Source: Rhodopseudomonas faecalis (GTDB taxonomy: Bacteria; Pseudomonadota; Alphaproteobacteria; Rhizobiales; Xanthobacteraceae). Taken from it: a stretch of 64,000 nt of DNA. Location: the NCBI RefSeq assembly GCF_003217325.1, contig NZ_QJTI01000005.1, forward strand, positions 62,001 through 126,000, in the 5' to 3' direction. The translations under genes and the position numbers were made by a program. This document shows positions 30,107-53,738 of this stretch, one piece after another. How positions within the stretch are numbered: position 1 is the first letter of the stretch; each line of letters opens with the position of its first letter. The notes under the pieces are model-generated. The model had not been told where the DNA came from. It saw only the letters and a program-made list of their open reading frames with translations, and did not search any database.

Positions 30107-30161
30107 GGGGCGGCGAGGTGCCGCGGCCTCACACGACAGCTGCGATCGATAAGACATGTGC

Positions 30162-30218
30162 TTGGAAAAATGGTCGGAGCGAGAGGATTCGAACCTCCGA
30201 CCCCTAGTCTCCCAGACT
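30162..30218. repeat. attL: 3' half of tRNA-Pro(GGG)
   Basis: Fifty-seven bases identical to 53652-53708 (from TTGGAAAAATGG to CTCCCAGACT). It covers the tRNA 3' end, T-arm, variable region and half of the anticodon arm on the minus strand. Downstream the sequence departs from the tRNA, so this is an attachment-site copy, not a gene. Confidence 0.93.
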
Positions 30219-30406: not shown

Positions 30407-31687
30407 ATGCCGCGCCGCGAACTCACGTCAGCCGGCCTCAAGGCGGAACGGCCGCCAGAGACGGGCATCCTTGAGATTTGGGACACGCTATCGCGTGGTC
30501 TTTGCTTCCGCCTGATGCCGAGCGGCAAGGCCACATGGTCTTTTCGGTACCGTCCGGCAGATGGCGGACCGCGCCGGCGTATCGCTCTTGGCGACTACCC
30601 GACCGTAGGACTGGCGGAGGCGCGGAAGCGCGCCGATCGTCACCGCGGGAACGTTGCCGACGGTGCCGACCCACAGGGCGCGCGGCAGGCAAAACGTGAA
30701 GCCCCAACGCTCGACGCCGTGATCGACCGTTTTCTCGCCGAACACGTGGAGCCGAAAAAGAAGGCTTCGACGGCCGCGCTCTACCGGCATTACCTCAAGA
30801 ACCTTGCCGGCCCGGTGCTGGGCGCGAAGAAGGCGCACGCGATCTCCCGAGCCGAAATGGCGACCCTGCACCGCGACCTCGGCGCCGATCGTCAAGCGAC
30901 GGCCAATCGCGTGCTGGTCACGTTGTCCGGCGTCTACACATGGGCGGCGAAGTCGGGGTTGGTGCCGGAAGGCGTCAACCCGGCGCGCGGCGTCGAGCGG
31001 TTCAGGGAGCAGGGCAAGGAGCGCTATCTATCGACCGACGAGTTATCCCGCCTCGGCGCCGTGCTGCGCACAGCCGAGACGGAAGGGCTGACGTGGCCGG
31101 AAGACGATGGCAAAGCGGCGTCAAAGCACAGCCGGAAGGCGGAGAACAGGCGAACCGTATTGCCACCGCACGTGGTCGCAGCGTTCCGACTGCTGTTGTT
31201 CACAGGATGTCGGTTACGCGAGATCCTGAACCTTAGGTGGTCAGAGGTCGATTTCGAGCGCGGCTTGCTGCTGCTACCGGATTCGAAGACCGGCAAGAAG
31301 GCGGTGGTGCTCAACGCGCCGGCCCTCGAAGTGCTCAAGGGAATTCCACGGCTGGGATCATGCGTTGTGCCCGGCGATGATTTAGAGAAGCCGCGCGCCG
31401 ATCTGAAAAAGCCATGGGACTTGATCCGGCATCATGCCGGGCTCGCAGACGTGCGGCTTCACGATTTGAGACACACCCACGCATCGGCCGGCGCCGGCGC
31501 AGGGCTAGGCCTGCCGATTGTCGGCAAGCTGCTTGGTCACCGCAGCGTCACCACAACGGAGAAATACGCGCATTTGGATGCCGACCCACTGCGGCGAGCA
31601 TCGAACACCATCGCGTCGACACTCGCCGCTGCGATGGGAGAGGGGGCGTCGACCGCCGTCGTGGTCCCGATCGGACGGCGGCGATGA
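30407..31687 (+). CDS. int: Tyrosine-type site-specific integrase with DUF4102 arm-binding domain
   Basis: 426 residues. An N-terminal arm-binding domain (LSRGLCFRLMPSGKATWSFRYRP, then IALGDYPTVGLAEARKRA, ~residues 29-78) is followed by a core-binding domain (~100-195) and a catalytic domain. Catalytic residues are visible: Arg in FTGCRLREILNL (~268), HDLRHTHAS (~357-365), GHRS (~378) and the Tyr nucleophile in TTTEKYAHLD (~389). It integrates and excises the element at tRNA-Pro. It lies 188 bp from attL and reads inward. Confidence 0.93.
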   Translation: MPRRELTSAGLKAERPPETGILEIWDTLSRGLCFRLMPSGKATWSFRYRPADGGPRRRIALGDYPTVGLAEARKRADRHRGNVADGADPQGARQAKREAPTLDAVIDRFLAEHVEPKKKASTAALYRHYLKNLAGPVLGAKKAHAISRAEMATLHRDLGADRQATANRVLVTLSGVYTWAAKSGLVPEGVNPARGVERFREQGKERYLSTDELSRLGAVLRTAETEGLTWPEDDGKAASKHSRKAENRRTVLPPHVVAAFRLLLFTGCRLREILNLRWSEVDFERGLLLLPDSKTGKKAVVLNAPALEVLKGIPRLGSCVVPGDDLEKPRADLKKPWDLIRHHAGLADVRLHDLRHTHASAGAGAGLGLPIVGKLLGHRSVTTTEKYAHLDADPLRRASNTIASTLAAAMGEGASTAVVVPIGRRR

Positions 31688-32645: not shown

Positions 32646-32737
32646 CTCAAATGACTTTCTTTGCCTGCAAGCGCAATTCTTTGCGTGTAGCAGCGGCTGC
32701 ATGACGCGGACCGCGACGGCATCGGAGGTCAGAATTG

Positions 32738-32947
32738 ATGAATACCACGAACACGGATCAGAACACGGCGCCGCGCAAGCTCAAGCGGCTCAAGGCGTGG
32801 CGTGAGGAACTCGGCATTTCTGCGGCCACGGCCTGGCGCTGGAATAAGTCTGGCCGGATCAAGATCGTCACGGTCGGCGGCGTGTCGTTCGTCGATGTCG
32901 CGTCCTTCGACGCGACGATCGAGGCGGCAATCGAGAAGGCCGCCTGA
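32738..32947 (+). CDS. Small HTH protein (excisionase/AlpA-like candidate)
   Basis: 69 residues: KLKRLKAWREELGISAATAWRWNKSGRIKIVTVGGVSFVDVASFDATIEAAI. The pattern (HTH with WRWNKSGRIK, then a short beta wing ending in a position-setting VDVASF) is that of helix-turn-helix_17/AlpA-type proteins that serve as excisionases or activators in integrated elements. An adjacent ATG at 32735 is an equal start. It precedes the replication genes. Confidence 0.7.
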   Translation: MNTTNTDQNTAPRKLKRLKAWREELGISAATAWRWNKSGRIKIVTVGGVSFVDVASFDATIEAAIEKAA

Positions 32948-33165: not shown

Positions 33166-34010
33166 CGGACGCCGCGGACAGTGATCGCGAGCGGTTGAAG
33201 GCGTTCACCGGCCAGAAGCTGGATTGGATGTCGGCGCTATGCGCCGACCCGCGTATCGGCCCGAGGGCGTTTCAGGTGGGGTTTTGCATCGCGCAGCACA
33301 TCAACCGCGAAACTGGCTTGGCGATCCTCTGCGACGACACGATCCGCGACAAGACCGGGATTGCTAATAGGTGGATTGCCAGAGCCCGAAACGAGCTTCG
33401 GGATGCCGGTTGGATTGATTGGCGTCGCACCAGGACAGCCAACGTCTACACCACCAGTGACGGACCGATGAACATGGTCATAGATCGGCAGATGCTGCTC
33501 AAGGAAGAGCGGGACGAGAGACGGGAGAAGCGCAAGTCTCTCCGTCAAGAACTGCCACCCGTGGCATATCTAAAATCGGAAGAACTGCCACCCGTGGCAG
33601 AACAAGATTTGCCACCCGTGGCAGAACAAGATTTGCCACCCGTGGCAGACAAACACCTTAGTAATTACACCGTAGATATTACACCTTCAAAGCTGGGACT
33701 ATCGATAGAGGAACAGACCATACCACCGCAGCCGGACAGCGAGCCGATCACGGCGAGCGCTGTTGCCGGGCCGGCCCCTGCGGACCTTCCGCCAGCCGAA
33801 GAACCGCTTCCCGCCGTTGCGCATCCGCAGTTGGCGGAGATGCGCCTGATAGACGAGCTAGGCGATGGAGACCCGGATCGCGGCGTTGAGGTGGCGGCGG
33901 CTATAGGCGGGAGGCGGTTTGAGTACCTACGCAGTGAATTGATGCGCGGCCACCTGTACCCCAGCGCAATCAGGGCGGCGTCGCGCTGCGTCCGCGGAGT
34001 TGCGGCATGA
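33162..34010 (+). CDS. Replication initiator-like protein (phage O-like, winged helix)
   Basis: 282 residues, near lambda O in length (299). The N-terminal half is a winged helix: IGPRAFQVGFCIAQHINRETGLAILCDDTIRDKTGIANRWIARARNELRDAGWI (~residues 27-80). The middle contains four copies of an (E/D)LPPVA motif, encoded by palindromic DNA repeats (33553-33647). The C-terminal part is Pro/Ala-rich then helical. By analogy with lambda O, the N-terminal domain would bind iterons in its own gene. No DnaC- or P-like helicase loader lies beside it. The identification rests on layout, not on a clear family match. Confidence 0.6.
   Translation: MTDAADSDRERLKAFTGQKLDWMSALCADPRIGPRAFQVGFCIAQHINRETGLAILCDDTIRDKTGIANRWIARARNELRDAGWIDWRRTRTANVYTTSDGPMNMVIDRQMLLKEERDERREKRKSLRQELPPVAYLKSEELPPVAEQDLPPVAEQDLPPVADKHLSNYTVDITPSKLGLSIEEQTIPPQPDSEPITASAVAGPAPADLPPAEEPLPAVAHPQLAEMRLIDELGDGDPDRGVEVAAAIGGRRFEYLRSELMRGHLYPSAIRAASRCVRGVAA
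33553..33647. other. Four palindromic iterons inside the initiator gene: candidate replication origin
   Basis: TGCCACCCGTGGCA, a palindrome with 6-bp arms, occurs four times: 33553-33566, 33586-33599, 33610-33623 and 33634-33647. Start-to-start distances are 33, 24 and 24 bp. The next ~70 bp (33648-33720) are visibly AT-richer (about 41 percent GC by my count) than the flanks. Iterons followed by an AT-rich unwinding zone, inside the initiator gene, is the lambda-type ori layout. Confidence 0.65.
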
Positions 34011-37190: not shown

Positions 37191-37376
37191 ATGGCAAAGT
37201 CGAAGAGATTTGAGGCCCGGATAACCTTCTGTATCCCTCACGAATTGGGCGAGAAGCTCTACGCGGCAGCAGATCGCAGCATGTCGTCGGTGAGCGACTT
37301 TTGCAGGCGCGCGATCGTCGAGAAATTGCAGCGCGATGGAGCCATTCCTCCGGTCACCGACGGGCGCGCCGAATGA
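37191..37376 (+). CDS. Small RHH-like regulator, 61 aa
   Basis: MAKSKRFEARITFCIPHELGEKLYAAADRSMSSVSDFCRRAIVEKLQRDG: a short strand followed by two helices, the ribbon-helix-helix order. It is the first gene after the promoter at 37135-37163 and could regulate it. The ATG at 37191 is preferred over the TTG before it. Its stop overlaps the next gene by 4 bp. Confidence 0.65.
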   Translation: MAKSKRFEARITFCIPHELGEKLYAAADRSMSSVSDFCRRAIVEKLQRDGAIPPVTDGRAE

Positions 37377-37906
37377 AGAAGCACCTCGCTCCTGATCTAT
37401 CCGCCCTGATCTCAACCGCTGCCGCAGCTCAACTGCTGATGGTCACGCCGACGTGGCTTCGCCGGCTGGAACGGGATGGCTGGTTCGCCAAGGCTGAGCG
37501 CGGCCAGTATCGCCTCACTGATTTGGTACAGGGTTTCATTCGATATCTTCGCGACGAAGATCGGCGCGCGACCAAGACTGCCAGCTTCGCCAAGGTGCAG
37601 GACAGCCGCGCCGAGGAAATCCAGCTCAGGATCGACGAGCGGCGCAAGGTGCAGATCGCGGCCGGCCAGGCCGCGGCGGTTCAGGTGATCGACGAGTTCT
37701 TTGGCATCCTCAAGGCCGATCTTCTCGCAATCCCGGCCCGTGTGACGCTCGACGTGGCGCTGCGCCGGAAGATTGAAGACGAGATGGGAGCTGCATTTGG
37801 TGCAGCCGCCAAGCGAGCTTGCGCCGCCGCGGACTGCGTCGAGAACGCTGGCGCGACCATCAATCATGCGGTCCACGGCGCGCCTCGACGGAAGGGACAC
37901 AGATGA
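37373..37906 (+). CDS. Terminase small subunit-like protein (Nu1 type)
   Basis: 177 residues (lambda Nu1 is 181). N-terminal HTH for DNA-site recognition (ALISTAAAAQLLMVTPTWLRRLERDGWFAKAERGQYRLTDLVQGFIRYL), then a charged helix (QLRIDERRKVQIAAG) and a C-terminal part with QVIDEFFGILKADLLAIPARVTLDVALRRKIE, as in Nu1 homologues. Nu1 binds cos DNA and hands it to the large terminase. No large subunit gene is in the element, so the protein would have to redirect a helper phage enzyme. Coupled to neighbours on both sides. Confidence 0.7.
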   Translation: MKKHLAPDLSALISTAAAAQLLMVTPTWLRRLERDGWFAKAERGQYRLTDLVQGFIRYLRDEDRRATKTASFAKVQDSRAEEIQLRIDERRKVQIAAGQAAAVQVIDEFFGILKADLLAIPARVTLDVALRRKIEDEMGAAFGAAAKRACAAADCVENAGATINHAVHGAPRRKGHR

Positions 37907-39857: not shown

Positions 39858-40136
39858 ATGAGCGACACCGTCACCGTGGCCCTGTCGAAGCCGATCACCC
39901 ACGAGGGCAAGACTGTTTCCGAGCTGGTATTCAATGAGGCCACTGTCGGCGATGCCTGCCTTGCTGATAGCGTCAAGGGCGAGACCAGCAAAATTCTCGC
40001 TATTCTTTCTGGGATGAGCGGCCAGCCGATGCCGTTGCTGATGAAGCTGTCGTTTCCTGATTTCAACAAAGTGGTTGACGCGACGGTGCCTCTCATGGGG
40101 GAGCTGCAACAGCAGTCGGATGGGTCGATGCCGTAG
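39858..40136 (+). CDS. Phage tail assembly chaperone, short form (gpE-like)
   Basis: 92 residues: MSDTVTVALSKPITHEGKTVSELVFNEATVGDACLADSVKGE, SKILAILSGMSGQPMPLLMKLSFPDFNKVVDATVPLMGEL. This matches the phage tail assembly chaperone family (E or gp41/14 of P2/Mu-like phages). The HEGKTVSELVFNEATVGD opening is characteristic. Such proteins wrap the tape measure during tail assembly. The gene sits just before the tape measure gene and has a -1 frame extension (40079-40258). Confidence 0.85.
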   Translation: MSDTVTVALSKPITHEGKTVSELVFNEATVGDACLADSVKGETSKILAILSGMSGQPMPLLMKLSFPDFNKVVDATVPLMGELQQQSDGSMP

Positions 40137-40258: not shown

Positions 40259-42499
40259 ATGGGTGTTCTCACTTCAAAACTGATCCTTGAACTGATCGAT
40301 CGGCTGACCGGGCCGGCGAAGAAAGCCAACGCGGCGTTGACGTCATTGAAGGCCGCGCAGGCGCGCAACAGCGCCATGCTCGCCGCAACCTCGCAAAAGC
40401 TGGTTGTGGCGGGCGCTGCAGCCTACGGCCTCGCCCGAGGCATTGGGGCTCCCATCAAGGCGGCGATGGAATTTGAGAGCGCGATGGCCGACGTCAAGAA
40501 AGTCGTAGACTTCGAGACGCCGGAAGGGCTCAAGAACATGAGCCGCACCATCATCGAGATGTCCAAGCGCATCCCGATCGCGGCAACTGGCCTGGCAAAG
40601 ATCAGCGCCGCGGCCGGTTCGTCCGGTATGAAGGAAGGCGAAATCCCCGCCTTTACCGAGATGGTCGCCAAGCTGGCGACGGCCTTTGACATGACTGCCG
40701 GCGACGCCGGCGAGGCGATGGCGAAGATCAAGACCGGGCTCGGCTACACGGTCGAACAGACCGGCGCGCTCGCCGATGCGTTCAACCACCTGTCCAACAA
40801 CGTGGCGGCGAAGGCGCCGCAGATCATCGATTACATGAAGCGCGTTGGCGTTTCTGGAAAGCAGTACGGTTTCTCGGCTGAACAGACTGCAGCCCTCGGC
40901 GCGGCGATGATCGCGGCTGGTGCTGAATCCGAGGTCGCGGCGACGTCGTTCCGCAACATCGGCAAGGCGCTTAGCAAGGCGGACAACGTCAGCAAGGACA
41001 CCGCCGCTGCATTCAAGAAGCTTGGCCTTAGCTCGATGGGCGTAACCAAGGCGATGCAGAAGGACGCGGTCGGAACCTTCAAGGACGTCCTCAAGCGTGT
41101 GGCGAAGCTGCCCAAGCACCTGCAAAAGAGCGTCCTGACGCAGATCTTTGGCGAGGAGGCGCGCGGGATGGACCCGCTCGTTGATAACGTCAAGCTCCTC
41201 GACGAATCGCTCGGCATGGTCGCCAACAAGACGAACTACCTCGGCTCGGCGACAAAGGAGTTCAAGGCAAGAACGGAGACCACAGCGAATGCTGTCCAGC
41301 TATTTAAGAACAGGCTGGAAGCGCTATCGATCGCGATCGGCGTGGCACTGCTCCCAGGTGTGAGAGACGCAACGACGGCGATGAACCCACTGATTGAGCG
41401 GCTGACAAAGTGGGCTGAAAACAACCCCGCCATTGTTCGAGCTGTGACACTCACGACGGCCGGATTGCTCGGCCTGCGCATTGCTGCACTTGGCTTGAAG
41501 TGGGCATTTGGTTGGCTCTGGGGCGGCGCCCTTTGGGTCGCGCGTGGCGCTCTGGTCGCGCTGGGTGCGGCATCCGCGCCTCTTACAATCATCCTCGGCA
41601 CGCTCGGCGCCGCTGCGATTTACGCTTATCGCAATTGGGATGAGATCCTGCAGCTCTGGCAGCGCATGAAGGAGCCTTGGCTAAATCTGGGCACGACGAT
41701 TTCGGCAACGTGGGAGAAGATCGCCGCGCCGATGCGGACCAAGTTCGCCGAGATCGTCACCGCAGTGCAGGAGTTGCCGGAGAAGGTGAAGGCTGCGGCC
41801 TCTGGGATGTACGACGCCGGCGTGGCGCTGATCACTCAGCTCTGGGAGGGTATGAAAGCCAAGGTGCAGGCGCTGCTCGGCTGGGTTTCAGGCATTGGGT
41901 CGCGGATCAAGAGCGCGATTGGTCTTGGCGGTGCGGCGCCTTCCAGTAGTCCGGCTGTTGCCGGCTCAAGGGCTACGGGCGGCCCTGTCCAGCGTGGCAA
42001 GTCTTACCTGGTTGGCGAGCGCGGACCGGAGCTGTTCACGCCGGATGCGCCCGGCCAGATTTCAACCGCTGCCGATACGGTCCGCATGATTAAGGACCGC
42101 GCCTTGTCTGTGGCGGCACTGCACAAGGTCGCTTCTCCGGTCATGCCGCAGATCGCAGCGCCAGTGATCCAGGCTCCGGTCATGCCGCAGATCGCAGCGC
42201 CAGTGATCCAGGCTCCGGTCATGCCGCAGATCGCAGCGCCAGTGATCCAGGCTCCGGTCATGCCGCAGATCGCAGCGCCAGCGTCGGTCGATACGTTGCA
42301 GGCCATCCGCGAGATCAAGGCACAGCAATCACAGCGTCAGGCCAGCGGCGGAACGGTGAACAACAACACATTCACGTTTCACGTCCAGGCCGCTCCGGGC
42401 CAATCTCCTGAAGCAATCGCCGCGGCCGTTGAGCGCCGTCTCAGTGACAAGCTCAATCAGTTGTCCCGCGGCGCCTACAGTGACGGGGCGTATGCATGA
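40259..42499 (+). CDS. Phage tail tape measure protein
   Basis: 746 residues. The N-terminal part (~1-370) is TP901-type tape measure core (KAAMEFESAMADVKKVVDFE, TALADAF, ALGAAMIAAGAESEVAATSF). A hydrophobic stretch (~395-460) contains two or three helices; the C-terminal part has a Gly/Ser linker and 13-residue repeats (MPQIAAPVIQAPV, ~628-675). Length sets tail length; at ~0.15 nm per residue it would give a tail of about 110 nm. Starts at the base after the E' stop and overlaps the next gene by 4 bp. No tail tube, sheath or baseplate gene follows. Confidence 0.93.
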   Translation: MGVLTSKLILELIDRLTGPAKKANAALTSLKAAQARNSAMLAATSQKLVVAGAAAYGLARGIGAPIKAAMEFESAMADVKKVVDFETPEGLKNMSRTIIEMSKRIPIAATGLAKISAAAGSSGMKEGEIPAFTEMVAKLATAFDMTAGDAGEAMAKIKTGLGYTVEQTGALADAFNHLSNNVAAKAPQIIDYMKRVGVSGKQYGFSAEQTAALGAAMIAAGAESEVAATSFRNIGKALSKADNVSKDTAAAFKKLGLSSMGVTKAMQKDAVGTFKDVLKRVAKLPKHLQKSVLTQIFGEEARGMDPLVDNVKLLDESLGMVANKTNYLGSATKEFKARTETTANAVQLFKNRLEALSIAIGVALLPGVRDATTAMNPLIERLTKWAENNPAIVRAVTLTTAGLLGLRIAALGLKWAFGWLWGGALWVARGALVALGAASAPLTIILGTLGAAAIYAYRNWDEILQLWQRMKEPWLNLGTTISATWEKIAAPMRTKFAEIVTAVQELPEKVKAAASGMYDAGVALITQLWEGMKAKVQALLGWVSGIGSRIKSAIGLGGAAPSSSPAVAGSRATGGPVQRGKSYLVGERGPELFTPDAPGQISTAADTVRMIKDRALSVAALHKVASPVMPQIAAPVIQAPVMPQIAAPVIQAPVMPQIAAPVIQAPVMPQIAAPASVDTLQAIREIKAQQSQRQASGGTVNNNTFTFHVQAAPGQSPEAIAAAVERRLSDKLNQLSRGAYSDGAYA
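42141..42281. repeat. 39-bp in-frame tandem repeat in the tape measure gene
   Basis: Three full copies of a 39-bp unit start at 42141, 42180 and 42219, and a partial fourth at 42258. The copies are practically identical, so the array is recent. Each unit adds 13 residues (MPQIAAPVIQAPV). Unit gain or loss would keep the frame. Confidence 0.9.
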
Positions 42500-44915: not shown

Positions 44916-45788
44916 ATGCCGCAAGCCGTGCTCGCCGATACCGACAAGGCGCCCCAGCGGGGCGCGCTGGTGCGATTTCCGAAACGCAAGGGGAGACGGC
45001 CGAAGGCCAGCACCGACGAACTCCAATCGATCCTGGCGGCGCTCGATATCCGCCTGATCGGGTGCACGGAGACGCGGCGCGACCACGAGACGACGGCCGG
45101 CGAGGTGTTGCGCAAGATGATCGCGGCGCACGGCGCCGAGCATGTCACCCTTATCCTCCGGACGATCCGGGAGAGCCGCGGCAACGAACGAGCGCTGACA
45201 GATCCGATCATCAACGCGGTGTCTGCCGTTGCCTTGGCGTTCCCGGCATGGCCGGCAACCGGACTGCGCTGGATCGAGGCATTCGATCAGGTGCCGTTGG
45301 TCGAGCTCTACGCCAAGGTCCGGCCGCTGAAATACGCTGTGAAGGGTTCGGCCTGGTGCTTCCTCGCCGGGATGATTGCCGAGCGTCTCTACCCCGTGTT
45401 CGCCGAGCAGAAGATCGCGCCGCCGAAGCGGGTGAACCTGCCCAAGCGGCCAGTCGCCGGCGCCCGCCGCATCGTCGAGAAGGGCTTGGAATTGCTGCCG
45501 CACAAAGGGCCGCACAACACCAGCCCGGTTCCTCGCGACGTGTGCGAGCGCGTCGGGGTCGAGAAGTATCAGGCGGGCTTCCACATCCGCGCCGCCCGCA
45601 TGTACGGCGATCGGCTCGAACTGATCGAGCGGCTGAAACCCGAGGCGCTGCGGGTGCTCATAAGCCCGACATTCCCGGCGGAGATCCGCGCCCAGGTCGA
45701 GCGGCGGCTTGCCGACGGCGAGAAGTTCAGCGGCCGGCAATTGAAGCGCATGGCGGGCATCACCACCCGCCGCCGTCAACGGAAGTGA
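44916..45788 (+). CDS. Hypothetical protein, 290 aa (paralogue A)
   Basis: A soluble protein. Basic N-terminus, then ELQSILAALDIRLIGCTETRRDHETTAGEVLRKMIAAHGAEHVTLILRTIRESRGNERALTDPIINAVSAVALAFP (~residues 34-110). The C-terminal part (~170-290) has RIVEKGLELLPHKGPHN, VGVEKYQAGFHIRAARMYGDR and a basic end. Its N-terminal half is clearly homologous to the next gene (45795), six bases downstream. I do not recognise the family; similar proteins occur in Rhizobiales islands. Confidence 0.7.
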   Translation: MPQAVLADTDKAPQRGALVRFPKRKGRRPKASTDELQSILAALDIRLIGCTETRRDHETTAGEVLRKMIAAHGAEHVTLILRTIRESRGNERALTDPIINAVSAVALAFPAWPATGLRWIEAFDQVPLVELYAKVRPLKYAVKGSAWCFLAGMIAERLYPVFAEQKIAPPKRVNLPKRPVAGARRIVEKGLELLPHKGPHNTSPVPRDVCERVGVEKYQAGFHIRAARMYGDRLELIERLKPEALRVLISPTFPAEIRAQVERRLADGEKFSGRQLKRMAGITTRRRQRK

Positions 45789-45794
45789 TCCTCC

Positions 45795-46679
45795 ATGGCT
45801 CAATCGGCATTGCGCGACGACCCGGTGGTGTCGTTTCCGCGGCGGAAGGCCAAGGCCGCGCCAGACGAGCTCGCCGCGCTGCTCACCTCGCTCGATATCA
45901 AGATCATCGGCCCGAACGATTATCGGCACCAGAACTGCACGACGGCCGTTGAGACGTTGCGGAGCCTGCTCGCCAAGCACGGGGCGGAGCACCTGACGAT
46001 CGTCCTGCGTGCCATTGTCGAGAGCGCGGGCAACGCCCGCGCGCTGATCGATCCCGTCATTCGCGCCATGAGCGCGGTGGTCCTGGCGCACCCCGAGTAT
46101 GTCGCCAAGGGGCTGGAGTTCGTCGAAGCCTTCGACGACTTTCCGCTGCTCGACTGCTACCGCGGCACAGCGGCGCTGAGGAAGACCGCGCCGGCGCCGG
46201 CATGGGCTGCGCTCGCCGGAATGATTGTGCTGGTGCTGCGCGACGGGTTCGACCGTGACCGCAAGCGGCACCGCACGCGCGCCGAGATCGCTGCCGATCG
46301 AGAGGAGCGCGAGGAAGCCGAGCGGGCCCGCGTTGCCGCTGCGAAGGTCAGCCGAAACCGCCGGAAGATCGAAACCGGGCTGCAGCTGATCGAGCTGAAA
46401 CGGAAGGCCGGCCGCGGCCAATTCCTGCGCCTAGCGCAGCAGCGGTTCGGGCTGGCCTATCCCGGCGAGGTCGCGGCGCTGGTGCGCGTGGCCGCGCTCT
46501 ACGGAGAGCGGGAGCCGATATGGTCGCGGGTGTCCTGGCAGGTGCTTGGGGTGCTGGCTGCGCCGGCCATGCCGTCAGATCTGCGGACAGAGTACGAAGC
46601 CCGCATCGAGGCCGGAGAGCACATCACCGCCAAGGAGGTCGCCCCGCCGCCGATCGGACGGCCCCGCAGTCGCCCATAA
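45795..46679 (+). CDS. Hypothetical protein, 294 aa (paralogue B)
   Basis: Paralogue of 44916: ELAALLTSLDIKIIGPNDYRHQNCTTAVETLRSLLAKHGAEHLTIVLRAIVESAGNARALIDPVIRAMSAVVLAHP (~residues 25-100) aligns directly with the same region there. The middle is strongly charged (AEIAADREEREEAERARVAAAKV), and the end is RPRSRP. The pair probably forms a hetero-complex. Unknown function. Confidence 0.7.
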   Translation: MAQSALRDDPVVSFPRRKAKAAPDELAALLTSLDIKIIGPNDYRHQNCTTAVETLRSLLAKHGAEHLTIVLRAIVESAGNARALIDPVIRAMSAVVLAHPEYVAKGLEFVEAFDDFPLLDCYRGTAALRKTAPAPAWAALAGMIVLVLRDGFDRDRKRHRTRAEIAADREEREEAERARVAAAKVSRNRRKIETGLQLIELKRKAGRGQFLRLAQQRFGLAYPGEVAALVRVAALYGEREPIWSRVSWQVLGVLAAPAMPSDLRTEYEARIEAGEHITAKEVAPPPIGRPRSRP

Positions 46680-46880
46680 ATCAGGGTTGCGCGCGTTTCC
46701 AGCGAATTGCTGCCTGGCCGCTTGGAGCGCGAAAAACGCGTCAACTTGCCTGAGATTGGCATGAAACAAGGCGCCATCTGCGTTGATAGGTCGCGCGTAG
46801 TCGAGTTTCTTTCCAGAGCAGGAACACGATGCTACGCTTTAGCATGTGTTTTATTTCCAGCTTCTCTAGTGCAGGGTGTC

Positions 46881-47606
46881 ATGATCATTGGAGACTATGG
46901 GAAGGATGCATTGGACTTTATTGAAGAATTGGAGGCTTATTCGACGGTTTCGTCTGCCTTCGACGCAATAAAATCCGGGTTCTATGCTTTTGGGTTTGAG
47001 ACAATAATCATTACAGGGATCCCGAGCTACCATCAGAAATTTGCTCAGATGGTGATGGCTAAGCGTTGGCCGGACGAATGGTTCGCCATTTATACGCAGA
47101 AGAACTATGATCAGTTTGATCCAGTCGTGAAGCATCTGCGACGAACGATCAATCCATTCGAATGGTCAGAAGCTAAGTACGATCGGGCATACGATCCGCG
47201 TGCGGCAGAGGTTATGGATCGCGCCGCTGAATTCAGGATGGTTCGAGGATTTGCCGTTCCGATTCATGGGCTCGCAGGCTATGAGGCGGCGATCTCGTTA
47301 GGTGGATCGGACATCGATCTGAACTCGCGCAGCAAGCCCGTGCTGCATCTGATGGCCATGTATGCCTTTGATCGAATTCGAATCCTTTCAACTCCGGAGC
47401 CAGTTGTCCCACGGTTGACCAACAGGGAACGCGAGGCGCTTAGTTGGGCGGCGCTCGGAAAATCAGCTTGGGAGATTGGTGAGATACTCAGAATCACGCA
47501 GCGGACGGCAGAAGAGCACATCGCAACTGCATGCCGGAAGCTCGGAGCCGCCAACAAGACGCATGCCGTGGCTCTCGCGATCCGCCAGAATCTGATCTCT
47601 CTATAG
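46881..47606 (+). CDS. luxR: LuxR-type quorum-sensing regulator
   Basis: 241 residues from ATG 46881. The N-terminal autoinducer-binding domain (~1-165) has WFAIYTQKNYDQFDPVVKH (~residues 59-77) followed by NPFEW, holding the conserved Trp, Tyr, Asp-Pro and Trp of the ligand pocket. The C-terminal GerE HTH reads LTNREREALSWAALGKSAWEIGEILRITQRTAEEHIATACRKLGAANKTHAVALAI (~177-232). It is close in length and pattern to BjaR/RpaR-type regulators of this group. Base composition is AT-richer than flanking genes, suggesting separate transfer. luxI follows after 86 bp. Confidence 0.9.
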   Translation: MIIGDYGKDALDFIEELEAYSTVSSAFDAIKSGFYAFGFETIIITGIPSYHQKFAQMVMAKRWPDEWFAIYTQKNYDQFDPVVKHLRRTINPFEWSEAKYDRAYDPRAAEVMDRAAEFRMVRGFAVPIHGLAGYEAAISLGGSDIDLNSRSKPVLHLMAMYAFDRIRILSTPEPVVPRLTNREREALSWAALGKSAWEIGEILRITQRTAEEHIATACRKLGAANKTHAVALAIRQNLISL

Positions 47607-47619
47607 CCGACAACGACAC

Positions 47620-47649
47620 TGGGACTTTTCCCAATATCGAGTTTTCGAT
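47620..47649. promoter_or_regulatory. Two adjacent inverted repeats between luxR and luxI (lux-box candidates)
   Basis: TGGGACTTTTCCCA (47620-47633) and ATCGAGTTTTCGAT (47636-47649) are both perfect 5-4-5 inverted repeats, with centres 16 bp apart, 44-73 bp before the luxI start. LuxR-family proteins bind ~18-20-bp inverted repeats upstream of luxI, so one or both may be the lux box. Neither matches a known lux-box consensus that I can cite. Confidence 0.45.
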
Positions 47650-47692
47650 TGTTGCCGGCAAGATCGCCTCACGTACTAAAGGGGAGGCGGGA

Positions 47693-48355
47693 ATGATCCA
47701 CGTGATTACGGCTACCAATCGTCACCTATATCACGAGGCGATCGAGCAACACTTCAAGATCAGGCACAATGTCTTTGTCGACGAACGTGGATGGAAGACG
47801 CTTGAGCGCTCGGACGGTCGCGAGATTGACCAATACGACAATGACGACACGGTCTATTTGCTCGCCATGGAAGGGGACAGAGTGGTGGGAGGGCATCGCC
47901 TATATCCGACCACCAAGCCGACTATGATCAGCGAGGTGTTTCCTCACCTCGCTGCCGTGAGTAGCTGTCCTTCGGCGCCGGACATCTGGGAGTGGTCACG
48001 GTATTTCATAGTCCCGGAGCGGCGGGACGGAGATTTGAATCTGCGGCTCATGGCTGCCGTTCAGGAGTTTTGTCTCGACGAAGGCATCTCCCAGGTTTCC
48101 GCAGTATTCGAGATGTGGTGGTTACCTCGCTTTCAGCAGGCCGGATTCGTTATTAAGCCGCTCGGCATTCCTGCTCTTGTCGAGAATGCTTGGACGATCG
48201 CGGCGCTGATCGATGTCAGTGACAGCACGTTTAGAGCAGTGAGCCAAAAAGTCGGCCAGCGTAGCGTGTTGAAGCGATGCGGTCCTCAGCGGAGGCACGT
48301 TGATCACTCAAAGAGGCTACAACAAGAGCATCTCGAGCGTTCACTTCTGTCCTGA
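47693..48355 (+). CDS. luxI: Acyl-homoserine-lactone synthase (LuxI family)
   Basis: 220 residues from ATG 47693, with a GGGGAGG ribosome site. Conserved LuxI residues are present: Arg and Phe in FKIRHNVFVDERGW (~residues 22-35), Asp/Asp in GREIDQYDND (~43-52), Arg in GGHRLYPTT (~66-74), FPHL, and EWSRYF (Glu and Arg, ~103-108). It makes an N-acyl (possibly aryl) homoserine lactone from S-adenosylmethionine. The pattern, with a C-terminal WWLPRFQQAGF, fits the BjaI/RpaI/BraI branch that uses acyl- or aryl-CoA. The C-terminal end is basic and longer than usual. Chemical identity of the signal cannot be read from sequence. Confidence 0.9.
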   Translation: MIHVITATNRHLYHEAIEQHFKIRHNVFVDERGWKTLERSDGREIDQYDNDDTVYLLAMEGDRVVGGHRLYPTTKPTMISEVFPHLAAVSSCPSAPDIWEWSRYFIVPERRDGDLNLRLMAAVQEFCLDEGISQVSAVFEMWWLPRFQQAGFVIKPLGIPALVENAWTIAALIDVSDSTFRAVSQKVGQRSVLKRCGPQRRHVDHSKRLQQEHLERSLLS

Positions 48356-48563
48356 TAGGACGCTCTGCGCGAACTCAATCACTTGCTGCCGTCCGGCTGG
48401 TGACGAGATTCGAGAAAAGAGCCGGACGAGAACCAAGCTCTCATACGGTGGGGCGAAATCTCCCTCCGCGGAGGTCGGCCGGTTGGGCCTCTGAAAATAG
48501 GGGGCCACCGTCTCATCGTCCGGTTTGTCGCGATTAACCAAAACAGCCTCCCGAGGTGAGGAA

Positions 48564-48755
48564 ATGGCTACCGTCGATCAGTTGAACCTGCTCCGGAGGT
48601 CTGTGGATGACGCTCGGGAGCTGGCTATCAAACTTGATATGACCATGACCGCCTACATTCTGGCAATGGCGTGCTTGGAGATTGCAGAGTCGATCGACGA
48701 CAAGATGTCCCGCGAAGTCTGCGCGCCCAATAGCGAACATGAATCAGACGAATAG
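48564..48755 (+). CDS. Hypothetical protein, 63 aa
   Basis: From ATG 48564, with a GAGGTGAGGAA ribosome site: MATVDQLNLLRRSVDDAREL, AIKLDMTMTAYILAMACLEIAESIDD. An acidic, all-helical small protein. Similar short proteins near luxI genes occur, but I know no function. About 207 bp separate it from luxI. Confidence 0.55.
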   Translation: MATVDQLNLLRRSVDDARELAIKLDMTMTAYILAMACLEIAESIDDKMSREVCAPNSEHESDE

Positions 48756-49012
48756 CCGAATAGGGATATTCCCAGGTTGAAGCTCTCCGGTGTCGGCGCG
48801 CCCGAATGCCGCAGCCCCCCGGCGGAACTCCGTGGGTTGGCATGCCGGTCGGTCTAGCTTGGCGCCACACCCCAACCGCCGCACGCCGCAACCTCGGCTT
48901 GAATGGTCTCTTCTGGCGTCTGGAATGGCTGCTAGCCTCCTGAGCGAGCTTCGGGACTCCATTCACTGGTCGCATGTGTTAAGCCGCACCTGACCGGAGG
49001 CGATTGGGTGCG

Positions 49013-50089
49013 ATGCGAAGCTTGTTAGGTTTGACGGTCTGTTGTGCAGCGGCCGCGATGTTGGTGTTCGTACCCAGCTCGGTTGGCGCTGGCGGCTGGG
49101 AAACCGTGCATCGTCACGTGCACAAGACCGGGAAGTGCGGTTCGGGCAAGGAGGTCCTCGCGACGCTCTATTCGATCGGTTCGCGCACGAGCACGGGCGA
49201 GCCTGTAAGCCGTGACAGCCTGACCGCGGCTTCCCACGAATACCCGCTCGGAACGACGGTCTCTGTGACCAATCCTGCGAACGGACGAACGTGCAGCGTC
49301 CGCATCAACGACCGAGGTCCATTCGGAAGGGCCCGCGACGCCGGTGTGAAGATCGATTTCACTCCGGGCGCGGCGCGCTGCCTGGGAATGCGGGGCACGC
49401 AGTACGTCTGCTTGCCTGGCGACGAAACCGTCGAGGTCGCCGGCGTGCCGCGCATCGTTGATGCCGATACGGTCGAGATCGGCGGCACCAAGATCCGATT
49501 GCATGGCATCGACGCGCCGGAGACCGACCAGCTCTGTCTCGACGAGAAGGGGGAGCGCTGGCCCTGCGGCATCGCATCACGCGACGAGCTTGCCAGGCGT
49601 TTCGGGGGCAAGCCGTGGACCTGCGAGGTCAGCAGTCAAGACAAATACGGCAGATCTCTTGGCACGTGCCGCGTGGGCTCAGAGAGCGTTGAGGAGTGGA
49701 TGGTTCGCTCGGGCTGGGCGCTGGCCTTCATTCGCTATTCGCGCGAACACGAGGCTTCTGAGGCCGTCGCTAGGGAAGCGCAGTCCGGGTTGTGGGCCGG
49801 CGCATTCATTGCGCCATGGGATTGGCGCGACCGAAACCGAAGGACCATGATCCTCGGAGCGGCCAGCGTGCCGCGCAACGCGCAGGAGGTGCTGCTCGGG
49901 GCAGCGTCGGCGGCTGCAGCGCCGTCTCAGCAGTGCGTGATCAAGGGCAACATCAGCCGCAGCGGCGAGTGCATCTACCATCAGCCAGGCAACCGCTGGT
50001 ACGCGAAGGTGATGATGGGCCCGGGGAAACGTTGGTTCTGCAGCACCACGGAAGCCGAGGCGGCCGGCTGTCGGGCACCCAAGCGCTGA
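49013..50089 (+). CDS. Secreted RlpA-like / thermonuclease fusion with C-terminal cysteine domain
   Basis: 358 residues from ATG 49013. A signal peptide (~1-26) is followed by an RlpA-like double-psi barrel (~48-125): TSTGEPVSRDSLTAASHEYPLGTTVSVTNPANGRTCSVRINDRGPF, with the Glu and a later Asp (VKIDFT) in positions of the RlpA transglycosylase pair. Next is an SNase domain (~143-262): PRIVDADTVEIGGTKIRLHGIDAPE and DKYGRSLGTC. Then a ~50-residue Cys-containing tail (QQCVIKGNISRSGECIYHQPGNRWY), like the sunset/Excalibur-type domain found after secreted nucleases. It could cut peptidoglycan strands and DNA in the periplasm or outside. Confidence 0.85.
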   Translation: MRSLLGLTVCCAAAAMLVFVPSSVGAGGWETVHRHVHKTGKCGSGKEVLATLYSIGSRTSTGEPVSRDSLTAASHEYPLGTTVSVTNPANGRTCSVRINDRGPFGRARDAGVKIDFTPGAARCLGMRGTQYVCLPGDETVEVAGVPRIVDADTVEIGGTKIRLHGIDAPETDQLCLDEKGERWPCGIASRDELARRFGGKPWTCEVSSQDKYGRSLGTCRVGSESVEEWMVRSGWALAFIRYSREHEASEAVAREAQSGLWAGAFIAPWDWRDRNRRTMILGAASVPRNAQEVLLGAASAAAAPSQQCVIKGNISRSGECIYHQPGNRWYAKVMMGPGKRWFCSTTEAEAAGCRAPKR

Positions 50090-50326: not shown

Positions 50327-50977
50327 TCAGAACAGGGGCGGCTGAGGGATTGCAAGATCTCGGCCCTCGGCCTTGAACATATTTGGTTCTTGATTGCAGG
50401 TGCTACGAGCAACAACCAACCCCTTGTTCAATGCTGCTCCAATTTCAGACAGCCGCCACACCGCCGCAATGAATGAAGATCCGGACGTCACCACGTCATC
50501 AAATAGGATGACAGGCCGTGTGGGTTTTTGAACAACAACTAGATTGTCGTAGCGAGGTTCAGGACTTCGATGCCCGGCGGTGGTGTGAACTGCCGGAGCC
50601 GCAGATCTCCAGCGGAGGCAATCCTCGGCTACCAATTTTCCCGATGAAGCAGACGCCATGCTGCTTGCAAATGACAATGTTCGGTAGTTCGGAGACGCGC
50701 CAACTACGGCTGAGCTATTTGGTATCGGCACGATCGTGGTCGTTTCGCGCAGCGTCTTCGCAACGTCTTTTCCTATGAAGGTCCAAAGTCGTGCCAAGAA
50801 CTCCTCTTTGCTGCTCTGCTCGAGTCGGATGGATAGCCCAGCGATTCCGATTTGGGCATAACCGTTGATAGGCTGTCCCTTGAGGCACTTTACGACCTTG
50901 TTCGTGTCAAAATCTTGCTGTCTGGGCGAGATCCCAGCCCAGTCCGTCAAGTAATAGCAATAGTGCTGGACCAGCAT
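50327..50977 (-). CDS. Phosphoribosyltransferase-fold protein (ComF/PRTase-like)
   Basis: 216 residues. The PRPP-binding motif VILFDDVVTSGSSF (~residues 156-169) matches the type-I PRTase loop; upstream ETTTIVPIPNSSAV (~78-91) fits a ComF-like PPi loop region. No cysteine zinc finger as in true ComF. Starts on the ATG that directly follows the TAA of the DprA-like gene (TAAATG), so both form an operon. ComF and DprA have natural-competence roles, but such pairs also occur in defence-like cassettes. Confidence 0.8.
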   Translation of the reverse strand: MLVQHYCYYLTDWAGISPRQQDFDTNKVVKCLKGQPINGYAQIGIAGLSIRLEQSSKEEFLARLWTFIGKDVAKTLRETTTIVPIPNSSAVVGASPNYRTLSFASSMASASSGKLVAEDCLRWRSAAPAVHTTAGHRSPEPRYDNLVVVQKPTRPVILFDDVVTSGSSFIAAVWRLSEIGAALNKGLVVARSTCNQEPNMFKAEGRDLAIPQPPLF

Positions 50978-51736
50978 TTAGGCGCCGATAGCAGCGACGA
51001 TCTCGTCCGTAGAAGACAGAACCGCTACTTTGGGATGCTTCAAGAATTGTTGCGGCCAGGAGAGAGAGCCATTTTCGGCTACCGCCCTCATAATGAAAAG
51101 CCACCGATTGAGCCGGACGCACTCTGCCGCTTGATGTAGCGTGCCTGAAGTATCTGACGCTTCAACGATCACCGTCGCATCACTGATAGCTGCCATCACG
51201 CGGTTCCGAGCTGGAAAATTCGACTTGAAGACGCGCTCGCCGTTGCGAAATGGCGAAATCAGTAAGTGGTGCTTGTAGATGTGCTGTTGAAGTTCCGAAT
51301 TTTCCGCCGGGTACGCCTTGTCGAGCGGAGTTCCGATTACGGCGACCACTCGACCTTGATTGTCTATTGCACTCTGCAGAGCGGCCGTGTCGACGCCTTT
51401 CGCGAGGCCGCTGACCACCGTCACCCTAGTTCTGGCCAGATCTCGAGCAAGTTGAGAAGCCCTCCGCCAGCCATCATCTGAGACCTCGCGCGTGCCAACG
51501 ATGGAGACAGTGGGGCCATCCAACAAATCGAGCTCGCCAGCATAATAGATCGCAACCTCGCGGCTGGGAGAGGCATTCCGCAAGAAATCAAGCTGGCGAT
51601 CAGCCAGCGGCATGCGACCGAACCTCATCAATAGGTCCGAGAGTAAATACCGATGCGAATCGACCGGCGGAGCATACGAGCCGCGGCGGCGCTCTCTTCC
51701 TTCAATTCTGCGATTTATCATTGCGGTCGACAGCAT
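50978..51736 (-). CDS. DprA/Smf-like Rossmann protein
   Basis: 252 residues (full DprA is ~360). The Rossmann core of DprA is clear: TVSIVGTREVSDDGWRRASQLARDLARTRVTVVSGLAKGVDTAAL (~residues 74-118), AVIGTPLDKAYPAENSEL and FPARNRVMAAISDATVIVEASDTSGTL. N-terminal SAM-like and C-terminal winged-helix domains are replaced by ~60 and ~40 other residues. So it is not the housekeeping competence DprA but an accessory SLOG-type protein that may sense or bind nucleotides. It is first in the operon; an alternative start ATG at 51721 exists. Confidence 0.85.
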   Translation of the reverse strand: MLSTAMINRRIEGRERRRGSYAPPVDSHRYLLSDLLMRFGRMPLADRQLDFLRNASPSREVAIYYAGELDLLDGPTVSIVGTREVSDDGWRRASQLARDLARTRVTVVSGLAKGVDTAALQSAIDNQGRVVAVIGTPLDKAYPAENSELQQHIYKHHLLISPFRNGERVFKSNFPARNRVMAAISDATVIVEASDTSGTLHQAAECVRLNRWLFIMRAVAENGSLSWPQQFLKHPKVAVLSSTDEIVAAIGA

Positions 51737-52330: not shown

Positions 52331-52765
52331 TCACCGCCATGGGTTCGGCGCCGGCGGGCAGCCCGTCGGCCCGCAGATGAACGGAACGGCCAAGCCTTCG
52401 CGGATCAGGATGGCCCCGACGTCTTCGCCCCGCGATTTGAGGACGCCGCACTTGCGACCGAAGTTGCAGAACGCGGAGTCTTCCGAGCCGGGCCGGCAAG
52501 AGCACTGCACCTCGGCATAGTCGAGCTCGCCGCCGCGGACGATCTCCCGAAGCCTGGCCGTGGCCCTGCCGCCGAGCTCCCGTTCTCTCTCGGTCTCTGC
52601 ATTCCGCGTTTCCGGGGCATTGAAGCCGACGAGGCGGCGATCCGGCTGCTGGCCGTCGATTCGGATTGTGTCGCCGTCGATCACCCTGATCCGGTCGGGG
52701 GCGATCGGCTCGGCCGCAGCAGCGCTTGCCAGCAACAGCAACAGCGCCGGGAAAACGTGTCTCAT
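52331..52765 (-). CDS. Secreted thermonuclease-like (SNase) protein, 144 aa
   Basis: From ATG 52765 (MRHVFPALLLLLASAAAAEP): a signal peptide (~1-19), then an SNase fold: DRIRVIDGDTIRIDG (~25-39), RRLVGFNAPET (~45-55), a cysteine-rich loop (VQCSCRPGSEDSAFCNFGRKCG) and GAILIREGLAVPFICG. The catalytic Arg region is altered around the cysteine insert, so activity is uncertain. Its start overlaps the stop of the small cysteine protein gene by 4 bp. Confidence 0.75.
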   Translation of the reverse strand: MRHVFPALLLLLASAAAAEPIAPDRIRVIDGDTIRIDGQQPDRRLVGFNAPETRNAETERERELGGRATARLREIVRGGELDYAEVQCSCRPGSEDSAFCNFGRKCGVLKSRGEDVGAILIREGLAVPFICGPTGCPPAPNPWR

Positions 52766-52974
52766 TCCTTCGCCCCTTTGCCGCGCTCCTGCACGTTCTC
52801 TGGCGTGCACCTCTTTTCCGGTGGATTGCCACAGACCCGGCTGAACTCGGCCCAGCCGACGCACTTGCCTGACGGCCCCCGATAGCCCGGGCCGCCGCGG
52901 TCGCCGCAGGCCGGCATGGCCGACGTGGGGATCATGACGACCGCAAGAGCGGCTATGGTAACGCGCAGACGCAT
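52762..52974 (-). CDS. Secreted small cysteine-containing protein, 70 aa
   Basis: From ATG 52974: MRLRVTIAALAVVMIPTSAMPAC, a signal peptide, then CGDRGGPGYRGPSGKCVGWAEF, RVCGNPPEKRCTPENVQ with five or so cysteines. The CGxRGGPGYR...GKCVGW pattern is seen in small secreted proteins that accompany SNase-like proteins in alphaproteobacterial phages. ATGA-coupled to the nuclease gene. Confidence 0.65.
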   Translation of the reverse strand: MRLRVTIAALAVVMIPTSAMPACGDRGGPGYRGPSGKCVGWAEFSRVCGNPPEKRCTPENVQERGKGAKE

Positions 52975-53056
52975 AATGGAACCATCGGCCCCGAGGCCCA
53001 ATGGTGCAAGCCTATGACCACTGTCCGAATGGACAGGCGGCGCTATCGTGCCGGGC

Positions 53057-53594: not shown

Positions 53595-53651
53595 CCGGAA
53601 AGCCGCAATGATCGGCCAAAGAGCCGATCAAGCTAAACTGCTGAAATGTAT

Positions 53652-53708
53652 TTGGAAAAATGGTCGGAGCGAGAGGATTCGAACCTCCGACCCCTAGTCT
53701 CCCAGACT
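53652..53708. repeat. attR: 57-bp copy within tRNA-Pro(GGG)
   Basis: Identical to 30162-30218. It reconstitutes the 3' half of the intact tRNA-Pro gene, so insertion left the tRNA functional. Confidence 0.93.
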
Positions 53709-53738
53709 AGTGCGCTAACCGGGCTGCGCTACGCTCCG
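53661..53738 (-). tRNA. tRNA-Pro (anticodon GGG)
   Basis: On the minus strand a full cloverleaf is seen: acceptor CGGAGCG paired with CGCTCCG, D-arm GCGCAGCCCGGTTAGCGC, anticodon loop CTGGGAG in a CTAGT/ACTAG stem (anticodon GGG), T-loop GGTTCGAATCC, and encoded CCA end. Read from 53738 to 53661. The element is inserted at its 3' half. Confidence 0.95.

Follow-up and report, generated by a model that had tools for sequence, protein, structure and literature searches.

The luxR–luxI–orf3 locus

The window, by which we mean the whole 64,000-nucleotide stretch of Rhodopseudomonas DNA analysed here, belongs to a genome of 4.07 Mb (G000). It contains a luxR gene (46881–47606, plus strand), a predicted lux box (47618–47635), a luxI gene (47693–48355, plus strand) and a small gene, orf3 (48564–48755, plus strand), which forms the third gene of the module. 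The open reading frame holding luxR (46857–47603) matches the Pfam families Autoind_bind (PF03472, 1.3e-30) and GerE (PF00196, 2e-13) above the curated cut-offs, as expected of an AHL receptor, and the luxI product, an AHL synthase of 220 amino acids, matches Autoind_synth (PF00765, 4e-25) with 88.9 bits versus a curated cut-off of 24. An earlier luxI start at 47531 was rejected, as it overlaps luxR; the start was placed at 47693 because, read from there, the protein aligns with its homologues from the first residue onward and its ATG follows a purine-rich stretch. All three genes are open and the box is intact. A promoter and terminator scan returned one promoter-like site, versus 1.0 expected, and no terminator.

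The GC content of luxR (52.1%) and luxI (55.1%) is below that of the surrounding element (61.9%) and of the chromosome (64.1/64.7%). A sequence-only reading of the same DNA had taken the pair to be complete and AT-richer than its surroundings, and both claims are borne out by the domain matches, the base composition and, where it could be measured, the low dN/dS given below. The neighbours are also as that reading described them. Upstream lie two related ORFs of unknown function (44916–45788 and 45795–46679, both plus strand; phrog_22699 at 3e-8 and 2e-8, with no Pfam match for either), and downstream is a gene for a protein with SNase and DPBB domains (49004–50089, plus strand; PF00565 and PF03330). 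It had overlooked orf3, the lux box and a second box at 53020–53037.

A phage-derived element in tRNA-Pro

The module lies within a phage-derived element of 23.5 kb that is integrated in a tRNA-Pro gene. A repeat search identified a 66 nt direct repeat (95% identity) at 30153–30218 and 53643–53708, with a spacing of 23,490 bp. The left copy is a partial copy of the tRNA-Pro end, and the right copy lies inside the intact end and overlaps tRNA-Pro(GGG) (53661–53738, minus strand; identified with ARAGORN). A tyrosine integrase is encoded at the left end (30407–31687; phrog_1 9.6e-59, PF00589 2e-19), followed by a weakly matched excisionase/regulator-like small ORF (32735–32947; phrog_66, E=1.8e-4), a terminase small subunit (37301–37906; phrog_57 8.6e-7), a tail protein/chaperone-like ORF (39858–40136; phrog_166 5.6e-8) and a tail tape measure protein (40259–42499; phrog_28 8.3e-110, TIGR01760 1.5e-69), all on the plus strand. 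Towards the right end, two small secreted-looking ORFs occupy 52331–52974 on the minus strand, one at 52762–52974 (from an inner ATG) and the other, weakly SNase-like (E 0.0095), at 52331–52864.

Sixteen congeneric genomes were searched for the tRNA-bearing right flank and the MerR gene of the left flank. The site is empty in 13 of the 15 genomes that have both flanks, these being 50–657 bp apart; in G000 and G002, where the element is present, the distance exceeds 23 kb, and neither flank was found in G013. The integrase, the att repeat in a tRNA gene and the empty site in relatives together confirm an integrated phage-derived element, as the sequence-only reading had proposed. The 13 empty sites rule out that luxR–luxI was ancestrally present beside this tRNA-Pro gene, and the pair was not found at this place in strains lacking the element.

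The copy of the element in G002 also occupies tRNA-Pro. It is a mosaic relative to the window copy: the two agree at either end and in scattered patches, separated by diverged sequence; the integrase is 99% identical, the terminase small subunit 94% and the SNase-domain protein 88%. Between the alignable ends at 46698 and 49088 there are 2389 bp in the window versus 276 bp in G002, and luxR, luxI and orf3 are absent from the G002 tRNA-Pro element. The best LuxI of G002 is 39% identical and is encoded far from the element. With two copies only to compare, we infer that the module was gained in the window element rather than lost in G002, since its GC content is low and the block recurs elsewhere.

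No homologue of a portal, head protein or large terminase, the genes taken to mark a complete prophage, was found among the window ORFs scanned. G002 has a second related element, 18.4 kb in length and flanked by a 50-nt repeat overlapping tRNA-Cys, which encodes an integrase and a tape measure protein as well as all three of these: portal, head protein and large terminase. Over 612 residues its tape measure and that of the window share 91% identity, but a tblastn search of the window with the other three proteins gave no match at E<=1e-3, for which reason the window element looks head-less and would be either decayed or satellite-like. PICI-like phage satellites have an integrase and small terminase, lack head genes and depend on a helper. 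The gene content seen here, an integrase and small terminase without head genes, fits such a satellite.

Recurrence of the module in unrelated surroundings

A block of about 1.84 kb (46865–48706) aligns with two other Rhodopseudomonas genomes, at a DNA identity of 71.8% with G015 and 70.9% with G001. At the protein level LuxR is 77–78% identical to the G015 copy and 75% to the G001 copy, and the lux box is kept in both copies with at most a Y position changed. The DNA flanking the G015 and G001 blocks aligns neither between these two genomes nor with the element: sarcosine oxidase-type genes and a TPP enzyme surround the former, and a SMODS/S_4TM pair, a Tle1-like gene and a Y-family polymerase the latter. 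Other congeners have matches to the DNA on the right of the G015 module; among the matches listed, the module itself was matched only in G000, G001 and G015. Because the block recurs in unrelated flanks and is confined to these three genomes among the matches listed, the three genes move as a unit, as a mobile cassette. The 9-bp word GCATGTGTT occurs in direct orientation on both sides of the cassette, at 46842 and 48972, and was judged to be a chance repeat (about 0.4 expected, an estimate for the stretches compared); the two edges share no word longer than 9 bp.

The dN/dS of luxI is 0.07 versus G015 and 0.13 versus G001, and that of orf3 is 0.26 and 0.25, respectively. For luxR dS is saturated in both comparisons (pS 0.78–0.83, pN 0.12–0.15), leaving dN/dS undefined.

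LuxI type and predicted signal

The solved structures nearest to the window LuxI are 5w8a and 5w8c (E 2e-97, 66.5% identical over 200 residues), which we take to be Bradyrhizobium BjaI. In a phylogeny of the kind suggested in the sequence-only reading, set against BjaI and RpaI, the window, G015 and G001 sequences group together (support 100/96) within a clade of 16 rows that includes sequences of genus g25 and 5w8a (100/99) and stands apart from RpaI. The LuxI of G367, a g25 genome, is identical to 5w8a across the alignment columns used, and on this ground the genus is probably Bradyrhizobium. The host has two other luxI genes, on contigs C14 and C26. The former is RpaI-type, with 6wn0 as its best match (E 1.4e-96), and the product of the latter is 30.9% identical to the window LuxI. 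As the substrate of BjaI is isovaleryl-CoA (PMC4234381), the product of the window enzyme is predicted by analogy to be a short branched, isovaleryl-type homoserine lactone made from acyl-CoA.

Six records of the phage collection match the window LuxI, every one below 60% identity and with less than 80% of the query covered; plasmid matches are likewise all below 60%. The luxI of 'Acinetobacter phage MD-2021a' was rejected as a phage case, since its neighbours are metabolic genes and it looks chromosomal.

Two kinds of lux box

The predicted box before luxI, ACTGGGACTTTTCCCAAT, is of the Bja type. The consensus of this type, ACTGGGAAATTTCCCAAT, is present at all 27 Bradyrhizobium-type loci (L099–L125), with no mismatch in 23 and one in 4, and differs from the window box at two bases. 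At up to 3 mismatches it has one match in the window, the site before luxI, versus 0.08 expected; a looser core gives 3 sites versus 1.45 expected.

At 53020–53037 lies a palindrome, CCTGTCCATTCGGACAGT when read on the minus strand, of the same type as the host's RpaI lux box. The RpaI-type box, CCTGTCCGATCGGACAGT, was found with at most one mismatch at 12 of 17 loci (L011–L027, the RpaI-type ones, G000 C14 included) and was absent at that threshold from the other five. The window palindrome differs at 2 positions from the box that precedes the rpaI-type gene of the host and is the single window match at up to 3 mismatches, versus 0.03 expected. The same box is found near the right end of the first G002 element, and a variant of it in the element of locus L216. 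The pattern CTGTCC-N4-GGACAG has 20 matches, corresponding to 16 distinct places, in the 1.10 Mb of DNA examined, which is enriched for luxI loci by construction; luxI loci account for 13 of these places, and the other 3 fall at the right ends of the window, first G002 and L216 elements, ends that are partly homologous, so that the three occurrences are not independent. The same 1.10 Mb contains none of six palindromes made by permuting the arms. In all three elements the box separates a plus-strand small ORF (MSLKITL...) from minus-strand ORFs. Its distance to the minus-strand start is 46 bp in the window and 55 bp in L216, versus 64–71 bp for four RpaI-type luxI genes. Since the host-type box also occurs in the two related elements, this predicted right-end box may let elements of the family react to the quorum sensing of their host.

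The orf3 family and PraR

A profile of orf3 was built from 13 small ORFs picked from luxI loci. Searched with it, 18 of 20 loci within the genus (20 of 21 luxI matches examined) and 30 of 30 within the family (the best 30 of 66) have an orf3-like ORF after luxI; with three duplicates removed this amounts to 45 of 47 distinct loci, a count that is partly circular because the profile sequences came from such loci. The window orf3 is among the profile matches. The two loci without it, L025 and L027, have the 33% LuxI type, and those that contain it include Bja-, Rpa- and related types. The profile has no match at four plasmid luxI loci (M. extorquens AM1, M. huakuii, Tistrella and Paracoccus) or at two from Hyphomicrobiales MAGs. 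At E<=0.001 it matches in 114 of 397 genomes; of 30 such orf3 loci examined, the 9 best have luxI and the remaining 21, of lower score, are without it. An IMG/VR contig (L135) with integrase, endolysin and tail-fibre genes carries luxR–luxI (LuxI 36% identical) and a weak orf3-like ORF after luxI, whose match has an E of 6e-7 when scored alone and of 0.011 and 0.0013 in larger sets. The window orf3 has no NCBIfam or PHROGs match, and for this family of small proteins that follows luxI so regularly no Pfam family was found beyond noise among the 13 members scanned.

One luxR–luxI–orf3 locus of G012 has an XRE gene divergently upstream of luxR that is presumably PraR-like, having been picked by a PraR motif. 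A probe made from it finds a copy at 55–58% identity in 16 of 16 genomes, and G012 has its two. In G000 the PraR-like gene is on contig C21 between ORFs that, recognised by eye, we take to be lnt and trmB. The metK neighbourhood was tried as a route to PraR and abandoned, metK being on C31 in this genome. Around the second luxI of G012, luxR and luxI were the only element genes matched.

Published work likewise places a tRNA-methyltransferase gene near praR (PMC10790750). Two precedents connect PraR with small proteins encoded beside luxI genes. CinS of Rhizobium is cotranscribed with CinI and binds and inactivates PraR (PMC4149787), and MmaP, a protein of 59 amino acids encoded directly downstream of mmaI and cotranscribed with it, binds PraR and suppresses swarming (PMC10790750). 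The 63-residue orf3 product resembles both in gene position and small size, and by this analogy we regard orf3 as the probable output of the cassette. That it is kept beside luxI in nearly all loci and travels with the pair suggests that the output is dedicated; these precedents, together with the PraR-like gene in the genome, are the reason for proposing it. The 21 lower-scoring orf3-like loci without luxI, the six plasmid and MAG luxI loci without an orf3 match and the two of 47 loci that lack orf3 speak against it.

Comparison with known systems

Complete LuxI/LuxR pairs on prophages are already known from Roseobacter (PMC13345283). This 2026 preprint reports luxI in 53 of 93 prophages, luxI-bearing prophages having served as queries to enlarge the set, and describes two Phaeobacter inhibens prophages (Phage A and Phage B) in which a complete LuxI/LuxR controls lysogeny, with cross-regulation involving the host receptor. 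The sequence-only reading had called such a pair rare on a phage-like element, a view that these numbers weaken. Roseobacter modules are exchanged between prophages, and some are in degraded ones; the horizontally transferred prophage-associated clusters are described as confined to the Roseobacter clade, and the main text returns no occurrence of Rhodopseudomonas, Bradyrhizobium or BjaI on a term search (PMC13345283).

The window resembles these modules in having a complete luxR–luxI on alphaproteobacterial phage-derived DNA, with a cassette exchanged or missing between related elements, but differs in its Bja-type enzyme, in its distance from the integrase and in its genus (PMC13345283). The wiring is also different. 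In Roseobacter an xre–luxR–luxI operon and a divergent hth gene act as a lysogeny switch (PMC13345283), whereas here there is no xre directly upstream of luxR and no divergent hth, the adjacent gene (45795–46679) being on the same strand, and a third gene follows luxI. The Roseobacter host receptor acts on the phage (PMC13345283); the counterpart seen here is a host-type box in the element.

With Bradyrhizobium BjaR1–BjaI, an isovaleryl-HSL system (PMC4234381), the locus shares the LuxI clade, the 66.5% identity, the lux-box type and an orf3-like ORF after luxI, but it lies in a phage-derived element of a different genus, alongside an RpaI-type system, and its signal is predicted. The small ORF directly downstream of luxI and the PraR-like gene in the genome are common to CinI–CinS (PMC4149787) and MmaI–MmaP (PMC10790750), although orf3, unlike CinS and MmaP, is on a mobile element. 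Phage LuxR solos (PMC6456758) likewise place an AHL receptor on phage-derived DNA, to which a synthase is added here. The open-licence literature searched yielded no description of a phage element bearing a Bja-type pair. On rhizobial and agrobacterial plasmids and ICEs, TraR–TraI forms an AHL circuit of the element's own that controls conjugation. The window element likewise has its own AHL circuit, though with a LuxI of the Bja clade.

A quorum-sensing cassette with a possible route to the host

The explanation that we favour, at a probability of roughly one half, is that luxR, the lux box, luxI and orf3 form a self-contained quorum-sensing cassette, carried as cargo, with an output that reaches the host through orf3 and PraR. 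The cassette would ride in the tRNA-Pro-integrated element without recognisable head genes, and its BjaI-type LuxI would make an isovaleryl-type homoserine lactone from acyl-CoA. LuxR with this signal would then activate a luxI–orf3 transcript through the box at 47618–47635, amounting to autoinduction, and the orf3 product, made together with LuxI, would bind and inactivate the host XRE regulator PraR. In this way traits of the host, for instance motility or behaviour on surfaces, would be linked to the density of carriers. In this scheme the identity of the signal, autoinduction, cotranscription, the binding of PraR and the phenotype are all inferred. If it is true, phage-borne LuxI/LuxR extends beyond the Roseobacter clade with a different wiring, and a mobile element may have provided this bacterium with a further cell-to-cell language: the cassette would bring a signal, a receptor and a protein likely to plug into a host regulator, on an element with a predicted operator for the host circuit.

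The module could instead be ordinary cargo, neutral or of benefit to the host, in which an extra Bja-type system controls unlinked chromosomal genes, or nothing, with no orf3–PraR link. We consider this possible but unlikely. It is consistent with the existence of the element without the cassette in G002, with the position of the G015 and G001 blocks at places without phage matches among the ORFs scanned, and with the breadth of the LuxI type, for which at least 66 of 391 family genomes have close matches at E<=1e-60, 63 of them outside Rhodopseudomonas. The persistence of orf3 beside luxI at 45 of 47 distinct loci, and its travelling with the pair, argue against it and favour the cassette with an output of its own.

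The host-type box at 53020–53037 points to a link between host and element outside that cassette-output model, and an alternative gives it the leading role: the element family would listen to the host's RpaI/RpaR-type circuit, or expose a secreted-protein operon to it, and the window copy would also speak its own Bja-type signal. Such wiring gains from the rarity of the palindrome, including the absence of its permuted forms, from the presence of the same box type at the host RpaI-type locus, from the divergent arrangement around the box in all three elements and from the host–phage cross-regulation in Phaeobacter (PMC13345283). It is nevertheless doubtful as the explanation of the locus, given the enrichment of the scanned DNA for luxI loci, the partial homology of the three right ends, target genes that differ in L216, a spacing unlike that of rpaI and the position of the box away from the cassette. 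The sequence-only reading had also suggested signalling to the host's own system. That suggestion takes another form here: the synthase and its box are of the Bja type versus the RpaI type of the host, but host–element links are plausible, since there is a host-type box at the right end and a third gene resembling PraR-binding small proteins, and the host-type box makes cross-talk between host and element a possibility.

That the pair itself senses the density of carriers and controls excision, lysogeny or cargo expression, the first suggestion of the sequence-only reading, now appears improbable. Its location in an integrase-bearing element, the lysogeny switches of Roseobacter prophages (PMC13345283) and the luxR–luxI and orf3-like ORF on the L135 contig would suit such a role, but the window has a single Bja-type box, before luxI, no xre lies next to luxR, the module is about 15 kb from the integrase and the sister element is without it. 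A decaying remnant without function, which the lack of portal, head and large-terminase homologues in the element might suggest, is very improbable with three open genes, an intact box and low dN/dS for luxI and orf3 versus two distant copies.

A broader proposal joins the cassette with PraR-directed output to the host-type box and is speculative. A satellite-like, head-less element would hear the host through an RpaR operator at its right end and speak an insulated Bja-type signal with an anti-repressor of the conserved host regulator PraR as output; this two-channel quorum device would weigh the density of the host against that of carriers and reprogram the host accordingly, and luxR–luxI–orf3 would be a general module that passes between phages and islands in Alphaproteobacteria.

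The element is also met in IMG/VR, where the first gene of a 16,273 b contig encodes an identical integrase and the last an identical copy of the 45795–46679 protein. The viral call on this contig stops just ahead of luxR.

Phage gene content and a related element

An integrase, a small terminase and a tape measure gene are all retained in the phage-derived element (30153-53708), and within the same interval no portal, head protein or large terminase could be recognised. Judged on gene content, this set might be that expected of a packaging-hijacking satellite. A compact related element of 18.4 kb is found within tRNA-Cys of the congeneric genome G002 (L216:1020-19457, contig G002:C1), encoding an integrase, portal, fused head/protease, tape measure and large terminase, and has stretches of 90-96% identity in common with the window element, for which it is possibly the parent or helper type. 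Between the window element and the tRNA-Pro copy in G002, the integrase is 99% identical and the tape measure strongly different (34%). The tape measure gene of the window element contains a repeat of 39-bp period (42096-42281).

Repeats, a possible operator and cargo

A 24-nt repeat that includes the inverted repeat TGCCAC-CC-GTGGCA occurs four times in a cluster at 33547-33651, possibly as an iteron-like array; the enclosing ORF has a weak replication-protein match (E 0.021). Three related elements (window 53020-53037; the G002 tRNA-Pro element, L087/L088; L216:18982-18999) each have near their right end, between divergent small genes, a palindrome of the same type as the host's RpaI lux box. 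It is a possible operator for the host's quorum receptor.

At 50327-51736 (minus strand), within a low-GC stretch, a weakly phosphoribosyltransferase-like ORF and an adjoining DprA-like gene (PF02481, 4e-52) mark a second variable cargo slot. In the G002 tRNA-Pro element it is occupied by unrelated genes, one of which may encode a Panacea/SocA-type protein.

Other luxR-luxI loci

Alongside genes for an integrase, an endolysin and tail fibres, one IMG/VR contig has a luxR-luxI pair and an ORF with weak similarity to orf3 (L135:7825-9550); this may be another three-gene module borne by a phage. In another congeneric genome, G012, a PraR-like XRE gene lies upstream of, and divergent from, a luxR-luxI-orf3 locus (L026:290-646, minus strand, locus downstream).
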